Positions 1 through 27,637 of a DNA stretch of 64,000 nt are shown here, one piece after another. A program made the translations under genes and the position numbers. The stretch comes from Halomarina pelagica (GTDB lineage: Archaea; Halobacteriota; Halobacteria; Halobacteriales; Haloarculaceae). The DNA is taken from positions 1 to 64,000 of the forward strand of contig NZ_CP100459.1 in the NCBI RefSeq assembly GCF_024228315.1, in the 5' to 3' direction. The notes below the pieces were generated by a model. It was not told the DNA's origin, searched no databases, and worked only from the letters and a program-made list of their open reading frames with translations. Position 1 is the first letter of the stretch. Every line of letters starts with the position of its first letter.

Positions 1-115
1 GTCCGTCCGACCCACGTCTGACGTACCATTAAGATCGGCGCTCCGAACAGGTAACTATGACCGTGAGAGGAGAGCGAACGGGGTCGCGGACGGCCGGGCG
101 GCCGGGAGGTCGGTG

Positions 116-925
116 ATGCCAGCGCGACTGGCCGTGTCGAACCAGAAGGGCGGCGTGGGGAAGACGACCGTCGCGATCAACGTCGCCGGGGCGCTCAACG
201 CCCGCGGCCGCGACGTGCTGTTCGTCGACCTCGACCCGCAGGGGAACGCGAGCGAGGGGCTCGGCTTCCGGGACGCGTACGACGCCGAGCCGCCGAGCCT
301 GTTCGACGTGCTGACCGACTCGGAAGCGCGCGAGGACATTCGCGACCTCGTCCGCGAACACCCCGCGATGGACGTCATCCCGAGCAACATCGACATGACC
401 GCCGCCGAGCCGGAGTTGACGCTCTCGCGACGCGGCGGGGAGCAGCTCGCGCTCGCGCTGGAGCACGTCGAGGACGACTACGACTACGTGATCGTCGACT
501 GCCCGCCCCACCTCGGCTACCTCACCGACAACGCGCTCCATGCGACGCGGAACGTGCTGATCCCGGCACTGGCGGAGTCGACGAGCAAGCGCGCCCTCGA
601 ACTGCTGTTCGATCACATAGAGGCGCTCGAACTGGACTACGACATCACCGTCCACGAGCGCGGCGTCGTCGCGAACCGCGTCGAGACGACCAACGAGGCG
701 CGATCGATGCTCGAGTGGTTCGACGACGCGTTCCCCGACATCCCGGTCTGGGAGATCAGAAAACGCGTCGCGCTCCAGCGGGCGTTCAGCGCCGGGGTCT
801 CGCTGTTCGAGTACGAGCAGGAGGTGGACATGGCGGCGGAGTTCCTCGCGATCGCGGCGGACCTCGACGAGCAGTTCGACGTGTCGACGCGGGACGGGGG
901 AGACGGCGTAGAGGTGGCGCGATGA
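116..925 (+). CDS. parA: ParA/Soj-family partition ATPase
   Basis: This is a 269-aa P-loop ATPase of the ParA/MinD class, expected to drive segregation of the replicon by binding DNA non-specifically in its ATP form. The deviant Walker A (KGGVGKTT) lies at residues 11-18, the A' motif (DLDPQGN) at 38-44 and Walker B (YDYVIVDCPP) at 122-131. A purine-rich ribosome site (gggaggt, 104-110) precedes both a GTG at 113 and the ATG at 116; the ATG has the better spacing. The stop overlaps the next gene by the ATGA arrangement, so the two are co-translated. Its position beside an Orc1-linked origin supports a plasmid or secondary-chromosome partition role. The ATPase family is clear; the replicon type is inferred. 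Confidence 0.93.
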   Translation: MPARLAVSNQKGGVGKTTVAINVAGALNARGRDVLFVDLDPQGNASEGLGFRDAYDAEPPSLFDVLTDSEAREDIRDLVREHPAMDVIPSNIDMTAAEPELTLSRRGGEQLALALEHVEDDYDYVIVDCPPHLGYLTDNALHATRNVLIPALAESTSKRALELLFDHIEALELDYDITVHERGVVANRVETTNEARSMLEWFDDAFPDIPVWEIRKRVALQRAFSAGVSLFEYEQEVDMAAEFLAIAADLDEQFDVSTRDGGDGVEVAR

Positions 926-1548
926 GCGACGGGGAGAGCCGCGCCGATCGACTCCGTAACCGGCGAGGACGAGCGCGGCGACGGGTCGAACGCGCGGAGG
1001 AAGCGTCCGAGTCCGATCGAGCGAACGAGGGGACCGAGCGAGCGGACGAGAGGACCGAGCGAGCGGACGACCGGGTCGGAGGGAACGATCCGGACGAGGA
1101 CCGAGGGAGCGACGGGAGCGACGACGAGGGGGAGAGCGAACCCGGAGAGGCGAGTGAACGCGAAGAGCAGGACGGAGGTGAAGGGGAAAACGAAGGCGGA
1201 GAGCAGGACGGAGGCGAAGGGGAAAACGAAGCTGAGTCGACCGAGGCGGATCCCGACGACCGGGGGATGGGAGGCTCCAGTGGAGTAGAGAAAGAGGGAC
1301 GCGGCGGTGAGAGCGACGAGCGATCGAGCGTCAAGGCCGAGCGGGTCGGCACCTACATGTACCTTCCGGAGGCACAGAAGCGCGAACTCGATCGCGTCTA
1401 CGGGACGCTCAAAGTGGCGTACGAATACGAGTTCGACGAGGAGTTCGAGAAGAACCGACACTTCTTCCCGCTCGTCGTGAAACACGGCTTCGAGACGCTC
1501 GACGCGGCGGATCCGCAGACGGTCGACTCGCTCCTGGACGAACTGTGA
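922..1548 (+). CDS. acidic ParA partner protein, putative partition adaptor
   Basis: This 208-aa protein overlaps the end of parA by four bases. Residues 1 to about 135 are a low-complexity tract rich in Glu, Asp, Arg and Gly with repeated units such as EQDGGEGENE and ERADERTERADD, likely disordered. The compact C-terminal 70 residues (from about KAERVGTYMYLPE) look folded and carry the conserved-looking part, with aromatic and charged helices. No ParB HTH or nuclease motif is visible. From the gene order it is the likely partner of ParA, either a DNA-binding centromere protein or an adaptor; this is inference. The codon use in the acidic tract is repetitive, so it may evolve quickly. Confidence 0.8.
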   Translation: MSDGESRADRLRNRRGRARRRVERAEEASESDRANEGTERADERTERADDRVGGNDPDEDRGSDGSDDEGESEPGEASEREEQDGGEGENEGGEQDGGEGENEAESTEADPDDRGMGGSSGVEKEGRGGESDERSSVKAERVGTYMYLPEAQKRELDRVYGTLKVAYEYEFDEEFEKNRHFFPLVVKHGFETLDAADPQTVDSLLDEL

Positions 1549-1588: not shown

Positions 1589-1608
1589 ACACCGCGTTTC
1601 CGGTGGAA
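1589..1608 (-). repeat. ORB-like repeat copy 1
   Basis: Left-arm copy with one base change at its 3' end (GGTGGAAA in place of GGTGAAA). It lies 40 bp after the ParA partner gene. Confidence 0.8.
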
Positions 1609-1793
1609 ATCGGATCGCGTCCTCAATCGCGGCATCGGCGTCCTCAGTCGCGGCATCGACCGCACCGACCGTTCTGATCGCGCTCGATCGTACGGATCAG
1701 TCGGCGGGCTCGTCGAGGACGCTCGTCGACGAGTCCGCCGATGAGGAGAGGGCATCGTCACCTACTGTACGACCGATCACCCCGTGTGCGGGG

Positions 1794-1813
1794 ACACCGT
1801 GTTTCCGGTGAAT
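1794..1813 (-). repeat. ORB-like repeat copy 2
   Basis: Left-arm copy reading ACACCGTGTTTCCGGTGAAT; two positions differ from the consensus. Confidence 0.8.
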
Positions 1814-1928
1814 TGAGACGAGTTGCTGAACAGGGGTGGGTCGACCGATGGACGGACAGACCCGACGGATGGGGGACGGAGCACAGATCGACGGACAGAC
1901 GGACGGACGGACGGACCGACAGGTGGCG

Positions 1929-1948
1929 ACACCGCGTTTCCGGTGAAA
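1929..1948 (-). repeat. ORB-like repeat copy 3
   Basis: Exact left-arm copy of the 20-bp consensus. A run of GACG repeats (about 1850-1920) lies just before it. Confidence 0.85.
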
Positions 1949-1987
1949 CAGGACGGAGGGACGATACCGGGAACGACGAGGCGAGAC

Positions 1988-2007
1988 ACACCACGTTTCC
2001 GGTGAAA
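1988..2007 (-). repeat. ORB-like repeat copy 4
   Basis: Left-arm copy with one change (ACACCACG in place of ACACCGCG), 59 bp from copy 3. Confidence 0.85.
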
Positions 2008-2092
2008 TGACCGAGCACGTTGAAACGACGAGCGGCGGACACGAAGAGCCGGGAGGCTCGCGCGGACTCGGTGGTCGAGACGAACACCCGCA

Positions 2093-2184
2093 GGAGAAGG
2101 AGAAGGAGAAGGAGAAGGAGAAGGAGCGAGGGCGAAAGGAGGAGGAGGAGGAGGAAAAAGAGGGGGAGGAAAAAGAGGAGGGGA
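2093..2184 (+). repeat. polypurine GGAGAA tract, left arm of origin
   Basis: Five perfect GGAGAA hexamers (2093-2122) run into a longer GGA/GGAAA-rich purine tract. It lies between ORB copies 4 and 5. The right arm has a matching pyrimidine tract, so the two are mirror-placed about the AT-rich core. Encoded Glu/Lys-rich reading frames here look like by-products of the repeat. Confidence 0.8.
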
Positions 2185-2198
2185 AAACGGACAGGGAC

Positions 2199-2218
2199 AC
2201 ACCGCGTTTCCGGTGAAA
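2199..2218 (-). repeat. ORB-like repeat copy 5
   Basis: Exact left-arm copy of the consensus. Confidence 0.85.
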
Positions 2219-2304
2219 CAGTCGGCGGAACGAGTGGATGAACTGGGTTGCACCCGAAGCACTGGAAACGGACCTTTGTGGATGCCAGATCGCTCGAGAC
2301 ACAC

Positions 2305-2324
2305 ACACCGCGTTTCCGGTGAAA
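2305..2324 (-). repeat. ORB-like repeat copy 6
   Basis: Exact left-arm copy, the one nearest to the AT-rich core on the left. Confidence 0.87.
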
Positions 2325-2384
2325 CGGGGTGAGAGAGGGGGGTAGCGGGGAAGGATCCGGCGTATATTGCCGAAGGTGGTACCG

Positions 2385-2560
2385 CCGATTTTTAATTCAT
2401 AACTCGGTTAGGATAGCGTAACGATATATCTAGAGATGGTAAAACTCTACATACGACGTACACGTCTAGTACTCCACTCTAATTAGAATTATTTATATGG
2501 TATAGCTGAGAATAGTCCATTAACTTACTCGCTGAGATGGCAGAAAGAGCGAGATATCGC
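2385..2560. other. AT-rich duplex unwinding element
   Basis: In a genome this GC-rich, about 175 bp with many TA steps stand out (TTTTTAATTCAT, GATATATCTAGA, AATTAGAATTATTTATATGG). It lies between the two inverted ORB arms, where a DUE is expected. A second AT-rich patch (2935-3020) lies between ORB copies 7 and 8 and may serve the orc1 promoter as well. Confidence 0.75.
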
Positions 2561-2624
2561 TCTTGAAAGCGTTCGTTCGAGGTGAACTGGACGTTGCTTC
2601 GACCGCGTTTGCTTTAATTGTGTT

Positions 2625-2682
2625 TGGTGGAGTGTGGCGTGGTGTGGCGTGGTGTGGTGTGGTCTTGGTCTAGTGGGGTCGG
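2625..2682 (+). repeat. GT-rich simple repeat (GTGTGGCGTGGT)
   Basis: The tract repeats GTGTGGCGTG and GTGTGGTG several times with almost no C or A on this strand. It sits between the AT-rich core and the pyrimidine tract of the origin's right arm. Confidence 0.7.
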
Positions 2683-2719
2683 TCTGTTCCGATCTAGTCT
2701 GGTATTGTCACGCTTCACG

Positions 2720-2800
2720 TCCTCTCTCTCTCTGCCTCTCCCTCTCCCTCTCCCTCTCCCTCTCCCTCTCCCTCTCCCTCTCCCTCTCCCTCTTTCTCCC
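2720..2800 (+). repeat. polypyrimidine CCTCTC tract, right arm of origin
   Basis: Nine perfect tandem CCTCTC hexamers (2735-2788) lie inside a longer CT-only run. It is the strand-complement type of the GGAGAA tract on the left arm. Such mirror purine/pyrimidine tracts can form triplex or resist nucleosome-like packing; any role here is a guess. Confidence 0.85.
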
Positions 2801-2900
2801 CTGCGTTCGGTCGGATGCGTCCTCCGACCGCGTCGAGATCGAGTCTCGCTCCCGAACCCAACCCCCGCTTCAACTCCACCCCACCCCCCTTCGCACCCCG

Positions 2901-2920
2901 TTTCACCGGAAACGCGGTGT
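2901..2920 (+). repeat. ORB-like repeat copy 7
   Basis: Exact right-arm copy of TTTCACCGGAAACGCGGTGT, inverted relative to copies 1-6. Confidence 0.87.
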
Positions 2921-3049
2921 GTGTGTCTCGACTGTTGATCTACGTAACTTACTCATCTAAATCTGGCTGTTTGCCGCCAATCTACTCCCTTCCCAACGAA
3001 TATCTAATATTATTACTTTCACCGGGCTGTATGGGAAACAGTCAAGCGG

Positions 3050-3069
3050 TTTCACCGGAAACGTGGTGT
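3050..3069 (+). repeat. ORB-like repeat copy 8, in orc1 leader
   Basis: Right-arm copy with one change (AACGTGG). It ends 8 bp before the orc1 start codon, so Orc1 bound here would cover the transcription or translation start. A half copy (TTTCACCGGG) lies at 3017-3026. Confidence 0.85.
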
Positions 3070-3076
3070 CCAACGA

Positions 3077-4276
3077 ATGACCGACGCGGACGACCTCTTC
3101 ATTCGCGAGGATCCTATCTTCGTGAACAAGGAACTTCTCGAGATCAACCACCTGCCCGACGAGGGTCGCATCGTCGGTCGGGACGAGGAAATCGGCCAGC
3201 TCGCGAACGCGGTGAACCCCGCCATCTTCGGCCAGAGTCCGAGTAACGTGCTCATCTACGGCAAGACGGGGACCGGCAAGTCCCTCTGCGCGAAGTACGT
3301 CTCCGGTCGCCTCATCCAGACCGCCGAGGAGGAGGGGATCACGACGGCGTACGCCTACGTCGACTGCGCGCAGGACTCGACGGAGACCCAGGCGGTCCAG
3401 ACCATCGCGAGCGCGCTGAACGATCCCGATTTGACAGACATCAACATCCCGGACAAGGGGATCAGTACGGCGACCTACTACAAGCGCCTCTGGAAGATCC
3501 TCGACATGCGCTACGACGTCGTGCTCGTCATCCTCGACGAGATCGACAAGCTCGACAGCGACGACATCCTGATGCAACTCTCGCGTGCGGGCGAGGCGGG
3601 GAAACTCACCGAGTGCAAGGTAGGCGTCATCGGCATCAGTAACAAGATCAAGTACAAGGACCGGATGGACGAGCGCGTCAAGTCGAGCCTCTGCGAACGC
3701 GAGTTCGTCTTCCCCCCGTACGACGCCCAGCAGCTGGGCGACATCATGCAGGCGCGCAGCGACGCCTTCCGCGAGGGCGTGCTCGACGACTCCGTCATAC
3801 CGCGGGCGGCCGCCCTCGCCGCCCGGGAACACGGGGACGCCCGCAAGGCGATCGACATCCTGCGTTACGCCGGCGAGATCGCCCAGTCTATCGGCGCGAA
3901 CACCGTCCGGGAGGAGTTCGTCGTCCAGGCCCGCCAGCGCGCGGAGACCGATCGGTTTCGCGAACTGATACGCGGATCGACGCCGCACTCGCGGTACGTC
4001 CTCCAGGCGCTCACGGTGCTCTCGCTGAACGAGCAGGAGGACGAAGCCTTTCGCACGACCCGCATCTACGAACTCTACCAGCAGGTGTGTCGGCAGGAGG
4101 GTTCCGAGTCCCTCTCGCTCCGCCGCGTGCGCGACCTCCTGAAAGAACACGCGTTCCTGGACGTTATCGAACAGTCGCGGTACAGCGGCGGGAGCGCCGA
4201 GGGGAGCTACACCGAGCACCGCCTGCTCGAGGACCCGGAGGTCGTGCGGAGCGTCCTCGCCGACACGATCGACTGA
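3077..4276 (+). CDS. orc1/cdc6: Orc1/Cdc6 replication initiator
   Basis: The 399-aa protein is an archaeal Orc1/Cdc6, which binds origin recognition boxes, opens the origin and loads MCM. Walker A (GKTGTGKS) is at residues 62-69, Walker B with the Orc-type ILDEIDKL at 149-159, sensor 1 (GVIGISNK) at 183-190 and the sensor 2 region (GDARKAID) at 253-260. The winged-helix DNA-binding domain fills the last 100 residues. Length and order fit the family. An ORB copy sits directly before the ATG, suggesting autoregulation, and the AT-rich patch around 3000-3016 is the likely promoter. Haloarchaea carry several orc paralogues, so the specific number is not assigned. Confidence 0.95.
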   Translation: MTDADDLFIREDPIFVNKELLEINHLPDEGRIVGRDEEIGQLANAVNPAIFGQSPSNVLIYGKTGTGKSLCAKYVSGRLIQTAEEEGITTAYAYVDCAQDSTETQAVQTIASALNDPDLTDINIPDKGISTATYYKRLWKILDMRYDVVLVILDEIDKLDSDDILMQLSRAGEAGKLTECKVGVIGISNKIKYKDRMDERVKSSLCEREFVFPPYDAQQLGDIMQARSDAFREGVLDDSVIPRAAALAAREHGDARKAIDILRYAGEIAQSIGANTVREEFVVQARQRAETDRFRELIRGSTPHSRYVLQALTVLSLNEQEDEAFRTTRIYELYQQVCRQEGSESLSLRRVRDLLKEHAFLDVIEQSRYSGGSAEGSYTEHRLLEDPEVVRSVLADTID

Positions 4277-4344
4277 GTCGCACTCGAGCGTGTGCGTCGC
4301 GTCCCTCCACTCCCCGTCCCCGGTCCCTCAACCCCCCGTCCCGG

Positions 4345-4364
4345 TTTCACCGGAAGCGCGGTGT
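4345..4364 (+). repeat. ORB-like repeat copy 9
   Basis: Right-arm copy downstream of orc1 with one change (GGAAGCG). Confidence 0.82.
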
Positions 4365-4516
4365 GCCCGAACCCCTCGATGACGCACCTCCCGACGGTGA
4401 CTCCCGTGGTGGGGATGACCCTGACGGCTAGCCAGCCGGGTCGGCGGGACCGTTCCGGCGTTCCGGCGTTCCTGCCGACTCCTCGGCCCCCGTCGCCGGT
4501 CGACTCCGGGGAACCG

Positions 4517-4536
4517 ATTCACCGGAAACGCGGTGT
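4517..4536 (+). repeat. ORB-like repeat copy 10
   Basis: Right-arm copy with one change at its first base, 172 bp beyond copy 9. It marks the outer edge of the origin. Confidence 0.83.
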
Positions 4537-4663
4537 CCGGTCCCCCGGCCGACCGCCGCCCCATCCCCGGTCGACCGCCGCCCATCCCCGGCCGACGATC
4601 GTCGACCGCCGCGGTACCTCCTTTAGCCCGGCATGTGTTACTAGGTGCCATACTGGTCGAAGT

Positions 4664-4691
4664 TTTTGACTTATAGATGTCCGAGTCAAAA
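4664..4691 (+). promoter_or_regulatory. 28-bp dyad operator candidate
   Basis: TTTTGACT (4664-4671) and AGTCAAAA (4684-4691) form a perfect 8-bp inverted repeat with a 12-bp spacer. It lies 15-20 bp upstream of a TATA-like TCTTTTAA (4707-4714), which is itself about 26 nt before the ATG at 4740. The spacing suits a repressor or activator binding just upstream of TFB/TBP. Confidence 0.5.
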
Positions 4692-4739
4692 CATTTGGCC
4701 GTGTAGTCTTTTAACCCCGACCTCCATTAGGCGGACGAT

Positions 4740-5111
4740 ATGGCGCAGCACGTAGCCGAGACCACTCGTCGACTCATCGACGCCGGAGGGACGATGGGGG
4801 GGTCTACCGACCCTGCCTCCGGATTCGCGTCGATGGACGACCCGTCAGGCGTCCCCGCAGGCGGGTGTCGACAGCGGGCTCCGGCACACTTACTGGCACG
4901 CGACGGCGTCGCGTGCGACCGTCCCCGTCGAACGAGCGAGGGGGACGCCGCGGTACGCGACGCCGGGCGGATGGCACGTACACTCAGCCGCGTTCACTCC
5001 CCGAAGCTCGACGGCGTGGGATCCGTCGAGCCCGACGCGGGGAGGGCCGGGACCGGACACAGCGGCGGAGGACACCGCGCCGGTCGCCCCCCAGCGTGGA
5101 TCGAGCGATGA
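4740..5111 (+). CDS. hypothetical protein (uncertain)
   Basis: A 123-aa reading frame begins with MAQHVAETTRRLID directly after a good leaderless promoter (TATA-like element at 4707-4714) and a dyad operator. The codon pattern is GC-rich at the third position, but the protein has no motif I recognise and is unusually rich in Gly, Arg and Pro after residue 30. It could be a genuine short gene or the intact start of a decayed one. The 316 bp after it, up to 5427, hold no convincing gene. Confidence 0.4.
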   Translation: MAQHVAETTRRLIDAGGTMGGSTDPASGFASMDDPSGVPAGGCRQRAPAHLLARDGVACDRPRRTSEGDAAVRDAGRMARTLSRVHSPKLDGVGSVEPDAGRAGTGHSGGGHRAGRPPAWIER

Positions 5112-19602: not shown

Positions 19603-20165
19603 CCCCCTCGAACCGTACTCCGACCGCACCCGATCCGATTTTTTGCGGCGTTTCACCCGAACGACGCGCGATACTGTCGACACCGTCGGTACCGTCCTTG
19701 AGTAATGTCCTGATTTCGTCGTCCGCCGACGCTGTCGGCCGACACCGCGGTCCCGCGCTCCGACTCGCGGAACGTGTCTCTGACGTTGCCTCCGGGGCTC
19801 TCTCGAACCGAATTCTCGTCGCTTCGTCCCCGCTACCGCCGGTTACGATCCGCATAACGCGCGTCGGGTCTCGGGTAGCGACCCCTGCGGACGCTCCCCC
19901 CTGCGCGCACGTCTCCGGCTACGTTTCGAACCGTTTCGATGACATAGATCGGTGGATATACGGCTTCTACCTCGAGAATACGGCGAATTCGCTGGCCGAC
20001 AGGCGACTCATAACAAAGGGCCTGGCTGTCCGTTTTCCGATAGCGACTCAGTATGATGGCATCAGGAGGCTGTATCGCGCAGCGTGGTTTCGCTGGCGTG
20101 ACTCGATCTGCAGGAGGGGTAGTACCGGCCGCGGCTGAGCGATCCGCGGCGGAGGGACAGCGTTG
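19603..20165. other. intergenic with leader ORF for nucleotide-sugar dehydrogenase
   Basis: The first 390 bp hold no clear gene. Site 6 (20000-20017) and a leader ORF (20053-20166) occupy the right end. Confidence 0.55.
20000..20017 (+). promoter_or_regulatory. bipartite element site 6 (nucleotide-sugar dehydrogenase)
   Basis: CAG-N7-ATAACAAA ends 36 nt before the leader ATG at 20053. Confidence 0.55.
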
Positions 20166-20166
20166 A
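20053..20166 (+). CDS. 37-aa leader ORF coupled to nucleotide-sugar dehydrogenase
   Basis: The frame starts MMASGGCIAQRG, and its TGA shares a base with the ATG of the dehydrogenase (TGATG, 20164-20168). A ribosome site GGAGGG lies about 10 nt before that ATG. The frame may be a real small protein or only a coupling device. Confidence 0.42.
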   Translation: MMASGGCIAQRGFAGVTRSAGGVVPAAAERSAAEGQR

Positions 20167-21464
20167 TGGCGACGGTCTGCGTCCACGGTCTCGGGTACGT
20201 CGGACTCCCGACCGCGGCGCTGCTGGCCCACAACGGCCACGAGGTCACCGGCTACGACGTCGACGAGGCGGTCATCGACCGGTTGACCCGCGGCGAGGTC
20301 CGGACCGGCGAGGCGGAACTCCGCGAGTACATCGCGGCCGTCATCGACGACGGCGCGCTCGTGCCCTCGAACGAGATCGAGCCGGCGTCGTATCACCTCA
20401 TCTGCGTCCCGACGCCGCTCGACGCCGAGGCCGAGCGGGCGGAACTCGCCTACGTGTCGAGCGCCGCCGAGGGCATCGCGGGCGTCCTCCGGGAGGGCGA
20501 CACAGTGATCCTCGAATCGACCGTCCCCCCGGGAACGACGGAGGGACCGCTCCGCGAGACGCTGGAGGAGGAGTCGGGCCTGCGCGCCGGCGAGGACTTC
20601 CACCTCGCGCACAGCCCCGAGACCGTCCTCCCCGGGAACATCCTCTACGAACTCCGCGCCAACGACCGCTTCGTCGGCGGCGTCGATCGCGACTCGACCG
20701 AGATCGCGGCCAGCCTCTACGAGCCGTGCATCGACGGGACGGTCCACCGCGCCCCCGACGCGAGCACCGCGGAGTTCGTGAAGCTCGTCCAGAACGCCTA
20801 CCGCGACACGAACATCGGCTTCGCGAACGAACTCGCCAGGGTCGCCCGCGACTACGGCATCGACACCCGCGAGGCGATCGAACTGGCGAACCGCCACGCC
20901 CGCGTCGACATCCTCCAGCCGGGACCGGGTGTCGGCGGCCACTGCCTGCCGGTCGATCCGCTGTTTCTCGCTCACGGCTCCGACGCCGTCGATCTCATCC
21001 GACACGCCCGCCGGGTGAACGACAGCATGGCGGGCTACGTCGTCGATCTCGTCTCCCACTACTTCGGCGGTCTGGACGGCAAGCGCCTCGCCGTCCTCGG
21101 CGTCGCCTACAAGGGCAACGTCGACGACACGCGCAACAGCCCCGGCCTCCGCGTCGCGCAGATGCTCCGGGCGGCCGAGCAGGAGCGCCCCGCCGTCGCC
21201 GACGGCGGCGAGCACCAGGGCGTCGAGACGCGCCTGCACGACCCGCACGTCTCCGACGACGACGGGTCGCTGGGACTCGTCTCGCTCGAGACGGCGCTCG
21301 ACGGCGCGGACGCGATCGTCGTCACGACCGACCACGACGAGTTCCGATCTCTCTCCCCGGCGAAGGCGGCCGAGCGGATGCGGGGTCGCCTGCTGGTCGA
21401 CACGAAGGGGCTACTCGACGAGAACGCGTGGCGCGACGCCGGCTTCGACGTACTCACGCTATGA
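20166..21464 (+). CDS. wecC: nucleotide-sugar dehydrogenase (UDP-ManNAc dehydrogenase type)
   Basis: The 432-aa enzyme oxidises a UDP-sugar C6 to a uronic acid with NAD in two steps. It has the Rossmann motif GLGYVG (8-13), LESTVPPGTTE (about 119-129) and the catalytic loop GPGVGGHCLPVDP with Cys260. GVGGHCxPVDP is the form seen in UDP-N-acetylmannosaminuronate dehydrogenases rather than UDP-glucose dehydrogenases (GFGGxCxPKD). It overlaps the DUF354 gene by ATGA. The sugar is likely a HexNAc, but the substrate is inferred from one motif. Confidence 0.9.
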   Translation: MATVCVHGLGYVGLPTAALLAHNGHEVTGYDVDEAVIDRLTRGEVRTGEAELREYIAAVIDDGALVPSNEIEPASYHLICVPTPLDAEAERAELAYVSSAAEGIAGVLREGDTVILESTVPPGTTEGPLRETLEEESGLRAGEDFHLAHSPETVLPGNILYELRANDRFVGGVDRDSTEIAASLYEPCIDGTVHRAPDASTAEFVKLVQNAYRDTNIGFANELARVARDYGIDTREAIELANRHARVDILQPGPGVGGHCLPVDPLFLAHGSDAVDLIRHARRVNDSMAGYVVDLVSHYFGGLDGKRLAVLGVAYKGNVDDTRNSPGLRVAQMLRAAEQERPAVADGGEHQGVETRLHDPHVSDDDGSLGLVSLETALDGADAIVVTTDHDEFRSLSPAKAAERMRGRLLVDTKGLLDENAWRDAGFDVLTL

Positions 21465-27263: not shown

Positions 27264-27637
27264 ATCGCCGCTGGCTCCCCGAGAAGCCCCGACCTCCGGA
27301 GATCCCTGAGCCCTCAGAGCGGTGAGCCACCGCGTCGTCGAGACGTGGCCGTCACGGCAGCGGTAATCTTAGCGGGTACGTTTGAAATCCGGTTTCGGTC
27401 GTAGCCGGTCAGGAGCGTGGCCGAACCGGCAACCCAGCCGACGGTTTCCACGATCTCGACTGTCTCACCGATCTGGTTTCAGCAGAAACGCGGTGTCCGA
27501 AGACCGCAAACGTGTCTCTAAACGTGACTTATCAGCGCCCCCCACCCCCCACATTTCACGAGAGTTGGCCCAAACGATCTCCCTCACCGACTGGATGGCT
27601 ACCGCGTGCCTCCTCTAACCGGCTAGTTTGGGCCCGC
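27264..27637. other. intergenic with distal ORB copy
   Basis: The convergent space between the antitoxin and a glycosyltransferase holds one ORB-like repeat (27477-27496). Nothing else convincing was seen. Confidence 0.6.
27477..27496 (+). repeat. distal ORB-like repeat copy 11
   Basis: TTTCAGCAGAAACGCGGTGT matches the origin element at 18 of 20 positions and has the orientation of the right-arm copies, about 23 kb from the origin. It may titrate Orc1 or be a remnant of a moved origin fragment. Confidence 0.65.

Follow-up and report, generated by a model that had tools for sequence, protein, structure and literature searches.

A probable oriCb-family, orc1/cdc6-linked replication origin on a ~96-kb haloarchaeal plasmid

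The window analysed here covers the first 64 kb of a contig of 95,860 bp, which belongs to a genome of seven contigs (4.6 Mb, 99.7% complete). The contig is a haloarchaeal plasmid of ~96 kb, and no terminal overlap was found at its ends in a circularity check. A pattern scan of the window detected ten copies of TTTCACCGGAAACGCGGTGT with 0–2 mismatches at 1589–4536 (four exact, the remaining six with 1–2 mismatches); the number of copies expected by chance, from 100 shuffles, was 0. The repeats, referred to here as ORBs, form six minus-strand copies followed by an AT-rich core and four plus-strand copies, and an orc1/cdc6 gene lies among the latter, with two ORBs before it and two after it (Table 1). 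The description given in the sequence-only reading, ten 20-bp copies in inverted arms around an AT-rich core beside orc1/cdc6, was thus accurate in every element. The innermost ORB pair is part of a 48-nt inverted repeat (2294–2341/2884–2931, 94% complementary), and the AT-richest 150 bp (66% AT) begins at 2389, between the two members of that pair. Simple repeats of purine-rich GGAGAA type and pyrimidine-rich CTCTCC type flank the core at 2090–2190 and 2724–2795 and add to the local skew. The gene at 922–1548, which follows parA, yielded a product for which no family match was found. Elsewhere in the 4.6-Mb genome the 20-mer was not found at up to 2 mismatches, apart from an isolated, weaker ORB-like site far from the origin (27477–27496, 2 mismatches), and viral contigs contained no exact match to it.

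Table 1. Features of the origin region and the adjoining partition genes, with positions in the window.
Feature	Position	Strand	Remarks
ParA-type partition ATPase	113..925	+	next to origin; same arrangement on Halomarina sp. BCD28 plasmid unnamed4
Putative ParB-like partner, overlapping gene	922..1548	+	role suggested by position
ORB copy 1	1589..1608	-	1 mismatch; 41 nt past end of putative parB-like gene
ORB copy 2	1794..1813	-	2 mismatches
ORB copy 3	1929..1948	-	exact
ORB copy 4	1988..2007	-	1 mismatch
ORB copy 5	2199..2218	-	exact
ORB copy 6	2305..2324	-	exact; left of innermost inverted pair; GTGTGTCTCG tail
AT-rich core, putative DNA unwinding element	2370..2545		61% AT over 176 bp
ORB copy 7	2901..2920	+	exact; right of innermost inverted pair
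Putative orc core promoter	3034..3046	+	GGAAACAGTCAAG
ORB copy 8	3050..3069	+	1 mismatch; 27 to 8 nt ahead of orc start codon; position conserved in family
orc1/cdc6 initiator gene	3077..4276	+	399 aa, AAA+ plus winged helix
ORB copy 9	4345..4364	+	1 mismatch; downstream of orc
ORB copy 10	4517..4536	+	1 mismatch; downstream of orc

The product of the orc gene matched TIGR02928 (E 2.5e-129) and the Cdc6_C winged helix; both the AAA+ and the winged-helix domain are present in an Orc whose gene adjoins the ORBs. Its closest relatives are in Halomarina. One scan detected 52 other loci with Orcs 73–98% identical to the window Orc, and the window repeat was present at almost all of them. The proposal that this ORB is tied to one type of Orc was borne out, and the ORB is specific to one Orc family: the nearest Orcs outside the family show 56–61% identity and are accompanied by TTACAGCGGCAC..GGGGTGTG-like ORBs, and the Orc–ORB pairing of the window is distinct from those at the genome's other origins. 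Members of the family occur in about 190 of the 391 haloarchaeal genomes sampled, a count made by hand from the search table with a best E below 1e-190.

The 412 ORB sites collected from the family gave the consensus nTTCACYGGAAACnnGGTGT. A GTGTGT tail was concentrated in the ORB pair that brackets the core and was missing from the promoter-proximal and downstream copies. The layout recurs across the family as minus-strand ORBs, an AT-rich gap and at least one plus-strand ORB. In nearly all loci the promoter-side ORB is located about 22–43 nt ahead of the orc start, and ORBs downstream of orc were present at 45 of 53 loci (hand count). Immediately before the promoter-proximal ORB the family conserves the motif GAAACAnTnAAG, which resembles a core promoter for orc, so that an Orc bound to this ORB would sit on its own promoter.

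The position of the array was compared with the strand composition of the plasmid. Over the full 95.9 kb of the contig, cumulative GC skew reaches its maximum at 2708, between the innermost ORBs. Among the plasmids of relatives, 11 of the 12 tested carry exactly one winged-helix Orc, and it is of the window family. The skew maximum lay less than 500 bp from the core on Halomarina halobia pl2, Halomarina BCD28 pl4 and Natrononativus pl2; on several other relatives' plasmids the skew peak was far from the array or there was no signal. In Halorientalis litorea plasmid unnamed1 (NZ_CP095483.1) the array (19936–20770) and orc (3757–4956) are ~15 kb apart, with transposase, sugar and other genes between them; an insertion has split the repeats from orc. 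The skew maximum of this plasmid, 20267, is inside the array and away from orc, and the poor fit obtained from the orc position is explained by the array sitting elsewhere, although the reassignment of the skew from orc to array was partly post hoc. A combined rank test over 14 plasmids gave a Fisher value of 3e-7 unmasked and 6e-4 with 3 kb masked on each side, the value being weaker after masking because the array is itself strand-asymmetric and contributes part of the local skew peak. When one was kept of the three same-genus plasmids among the 14, the masked value was 6e-3. GC skew is support for an origin, not proof. The parA gene precedes the origin, an order shared with the Halomarina BCD28 plasmid, which is complete at 94.5 kb. 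The ten-ORB array together with orc is almost certainly a replication origin; this central proposal of the sequence-only reading is supported by the array, the domains of the Orc and the skew peak at 2708.

The contig contains further orc genes, at 75947 and 84722 and as a fragment at 68641, and another origin could therefore fire. The second orc (75947–77119) is accompanied by its own G-string ORBs, an inverted set different from that of the window (AACGTCGGAAACGAGGGGGGAGGGGG), and may mark a second or dormant origin. The shortened orc at 68641–69162 gives a match of ~170 aa within an open frame of 190 aa; a repeat, TTTCACTGAAAACGAGGGGT, is found near it at 69721 and also on other haloarchaeal plasmids. 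The window origin could thus be genuine but dormant, with the plasmid firing from the orc at 75947, around which the distinct ORB set lies, and pHM500 offers a documented precedent for dormant origins next to active ones. We consider this improbable, since the skew maximum of the contig is at 2708 and not at 75947, and since the 94.5-kb BCD28 plasmid, which has the same parA–orc start, carries only the window-type Orc and shows the same skew pattern.

We next consider to which class this origin belongs. pNMAG01 and pHALXA01 each encode a single Orc, to which the window Orc is 84% identical in both cases; its identity to the closest Orc of pHTUR04 is 81%. The single Orcs of pNMAG01 and pHALXA01 are of the window family, and both plasmids are listed as 1/1 origin-associated in Table 1 of the 2012 catalogue (PMC3528665). 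From the plasmid, the single-Orc status and the text of that paper, these three Orcs appear to be the oriCb members it names. Within oriCb the catalogue (Wu et al. 2012, PMC3528665) distinguishes a chromosomal, rRNA-linked branch (Hvo_orc5, Hbo_14700, Hla_1524) from one that is mostly extrachromosomal (Htu_5222, Hje_08365, Nma_3611, Hxa_0635). Loci that fit both descriptions are represented in our data, and the window ORB consensus is common to pNMAG01, pHTUR04 and rRNA-linked chromosomal loci. The chromosomal members are ~79–82% identical to the window Orc and have the same ORB; in one large genome family, f4, which we read from its content as Haloferacaceae, they lie 3–4.4 kb from 16S-tRNA(Ala)-23S-5S operons. 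Of the 13 f4 loci (L264–L276), 11 showed 16S motifs and tRNA(Ala) near orc, the other two (L268, L273) being cut by a contig end, and full 16S-tRNA(Ala)-23S-5S operons were confirmed at L264, L269 and L274. The window copy is of the plasmid type.

Because the plasmid members, the shared ORB and the rRNA-linked chromosomal branch are all concordant, we infer that the window origin belongs to the widespread and already published oriCb family (PMC3528665). The same concordance suggests a link between the window Orc and Hvo Orc5 (HVO_1725), which drives the active oriC2 of Haloferax volcanii (PMC7776575). For the orc5 homologue of Haloferax mediterranei, autonomous replication (ARS) and a marker-frequency peak are on record (PMC4595724). 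The suggestion of an origin class of its own is not supported: the Orc/ORB pair is widespread, is present in the catalogue and matches oriCb, so that the ORB would equal a known class. The type of origin is not new, as the same initiator and repeat are found in about half of the sampled haloarchaeal genomes, on plasmids and beside chromosomal rRNA genes. Searching the running text of the literature for the 20-mer and for its core returned no origin paper; figures and supplements were unsearchable, so this search is silent on novelty.

The sequence-only reading had also pointed to a CACCG-N6-CGGTG dyad within the ORB. The window sequence does contain this dyad, but the dyad is not conserved: its 5-bp arms are intact in 45% of the 412 family sites. 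In 48 sites position 7 is T while position 16 is still G, so that the pair 7–16 is broken as T–G, and no compensating T–A pair was found. With pairs 7–16 and 8–15 both broken without compensation, the dyad was rejected as a trait conserved in the class. Its symmetry is a side effect of the ORB core together with the GGTG end and not a constraint. A new class defined by this dyad, with an Orc dimer reading it as a palindrome, is very hard to sustain; the dyad of the window consensus speaks for it, but the uncompensated breaks, the polar ORBs arranged by orientation and a class that is widespread and already published all speak against it. It is just as doubtful that the repeats serve primarily the neighbouring ParA system, as regulatory or parS-like centromere sites, for although parA and its putative partner are directly upstream of the array, the ORB flanks orc in N. 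magadii and H. turkmenica where no parA is annotated nearby, is also carried by chromosomal loci, occurs in Haloarcula JP-L23 and H. litorea with parA located elsewhere, tracks the Orc family and contains the core typical of archaeal ORBs.

We conclude that the locus is very probably an oriCb-family, orc1/cdc6-dependent replication origin of the ~96-kb plasmid. In such an origin the cognate Orc would bind each 20-bp ORB in a fixed polarity, with TTTCACCGGAAAC contacted by its winged helix and the G/T-rich end, GGTGT(GTGTGT), by its AAA+ domain. The AT-rich core lies between the inverted ORBs at 2305 and 2901, and opening of the DNA there would be followed by MCM loading and the start of bidirectional replication. 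Binding of Orc to the promoter-proximal ORB, directly after the core promoter, probably results in autorepression of orc, and the downstream ORBs probably titrate Orc. For this strain the binding contacts, melting, autorepression, titration and firing are what the arrangement of sites predicts.

The analysis provides an ORB definition that holds across the class for one of the most common origin families of haloarchaea, in which one initiator–ORB pair serves both plasmids and chromosomes. Halorientalis litorea represents a natural experiment, in which the replication-linked skew follows the ORB core and not the initiator gene. Two features lend themselves to direct testing: the end of the ORB, and the ORBs downstream of orc, which rRNA-linked copies lack.

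The origin can be compared with three described systems. With haloarchaeal oriC1 (Orc1/Cdc6A) it shares an AAA+/winged-helix Orc and polar ORBs with a GGAAAC core round an AT-rich region. The oriC1 of the same genome differs in having CTCCAGTGGAAACGAAGGGGTGGGGG, with a true G-string, and an Orc about 40% identical to the window Orc. In the 412-site consensus a poly-G at the ORB end is absent, the end being GGTGT(GTGTGT), so the window ORB was not filed as oriC1-type. The poly-G string was reported to be essential at oriC1 of Haloarcula hispanica (PMC3936714). A second haloarchaeal family on pHTUR04 has an ORB that also seems to end in GAGGTGTG, so the broken G-string may not be unique to the window family.

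At oriC2-cdc6E of H. hispanica, a downstream ORB cluster restrains firing, likely by titration (PMC3936714). That origin also has ORBs on both sides of the initiator gene; it was the restraint of firing that was shown there, and the two origins are not known to share an Orc family. By analogy, the downstream ORBs of the window may titrate Orc. None of the 13 f4 copies (L264–L276), most of which adjoin an rRNA operon, had downstream ORBs within 4 kb of orc, L268 and L273 ending ~2 kb past it, against 45 of 53 among the other loci, and 14 solitary ORBs of the class were found far from the origin in 14 plasmids, compared with 0.15 expected. Features that may extend the described type are the lack of poly-G at the ORB end, the ORB placed at the orc promoter, the ORBs downstream of orc that rRNA-linked chromosomal copies do not have, and the remote ORBs that stand alone. 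Tentatively, and with the odds somewhat against it, oriCb Orcs might read a GT-repeat end in place of poly-G, and the downstream and solitary remote ORBs of the mobile plasmid branch, absent from the rRNA-linked branch, might serve copy-number titration.

The third system is oriCb itself (Haloferax volcanii Orc5/oriC2; Nma_3611, Htu_5222, Hxa_0635). The window Orc is 79–84% identical to those of the catalogue plasmids and the rRNA-linked loci, the ORB is the same, and inverted ORBs surround an AT-rich core upstream of orc. The window copy differs in that it is plasmid-borne, adjoins parA and has two ORBs downstream of orc.
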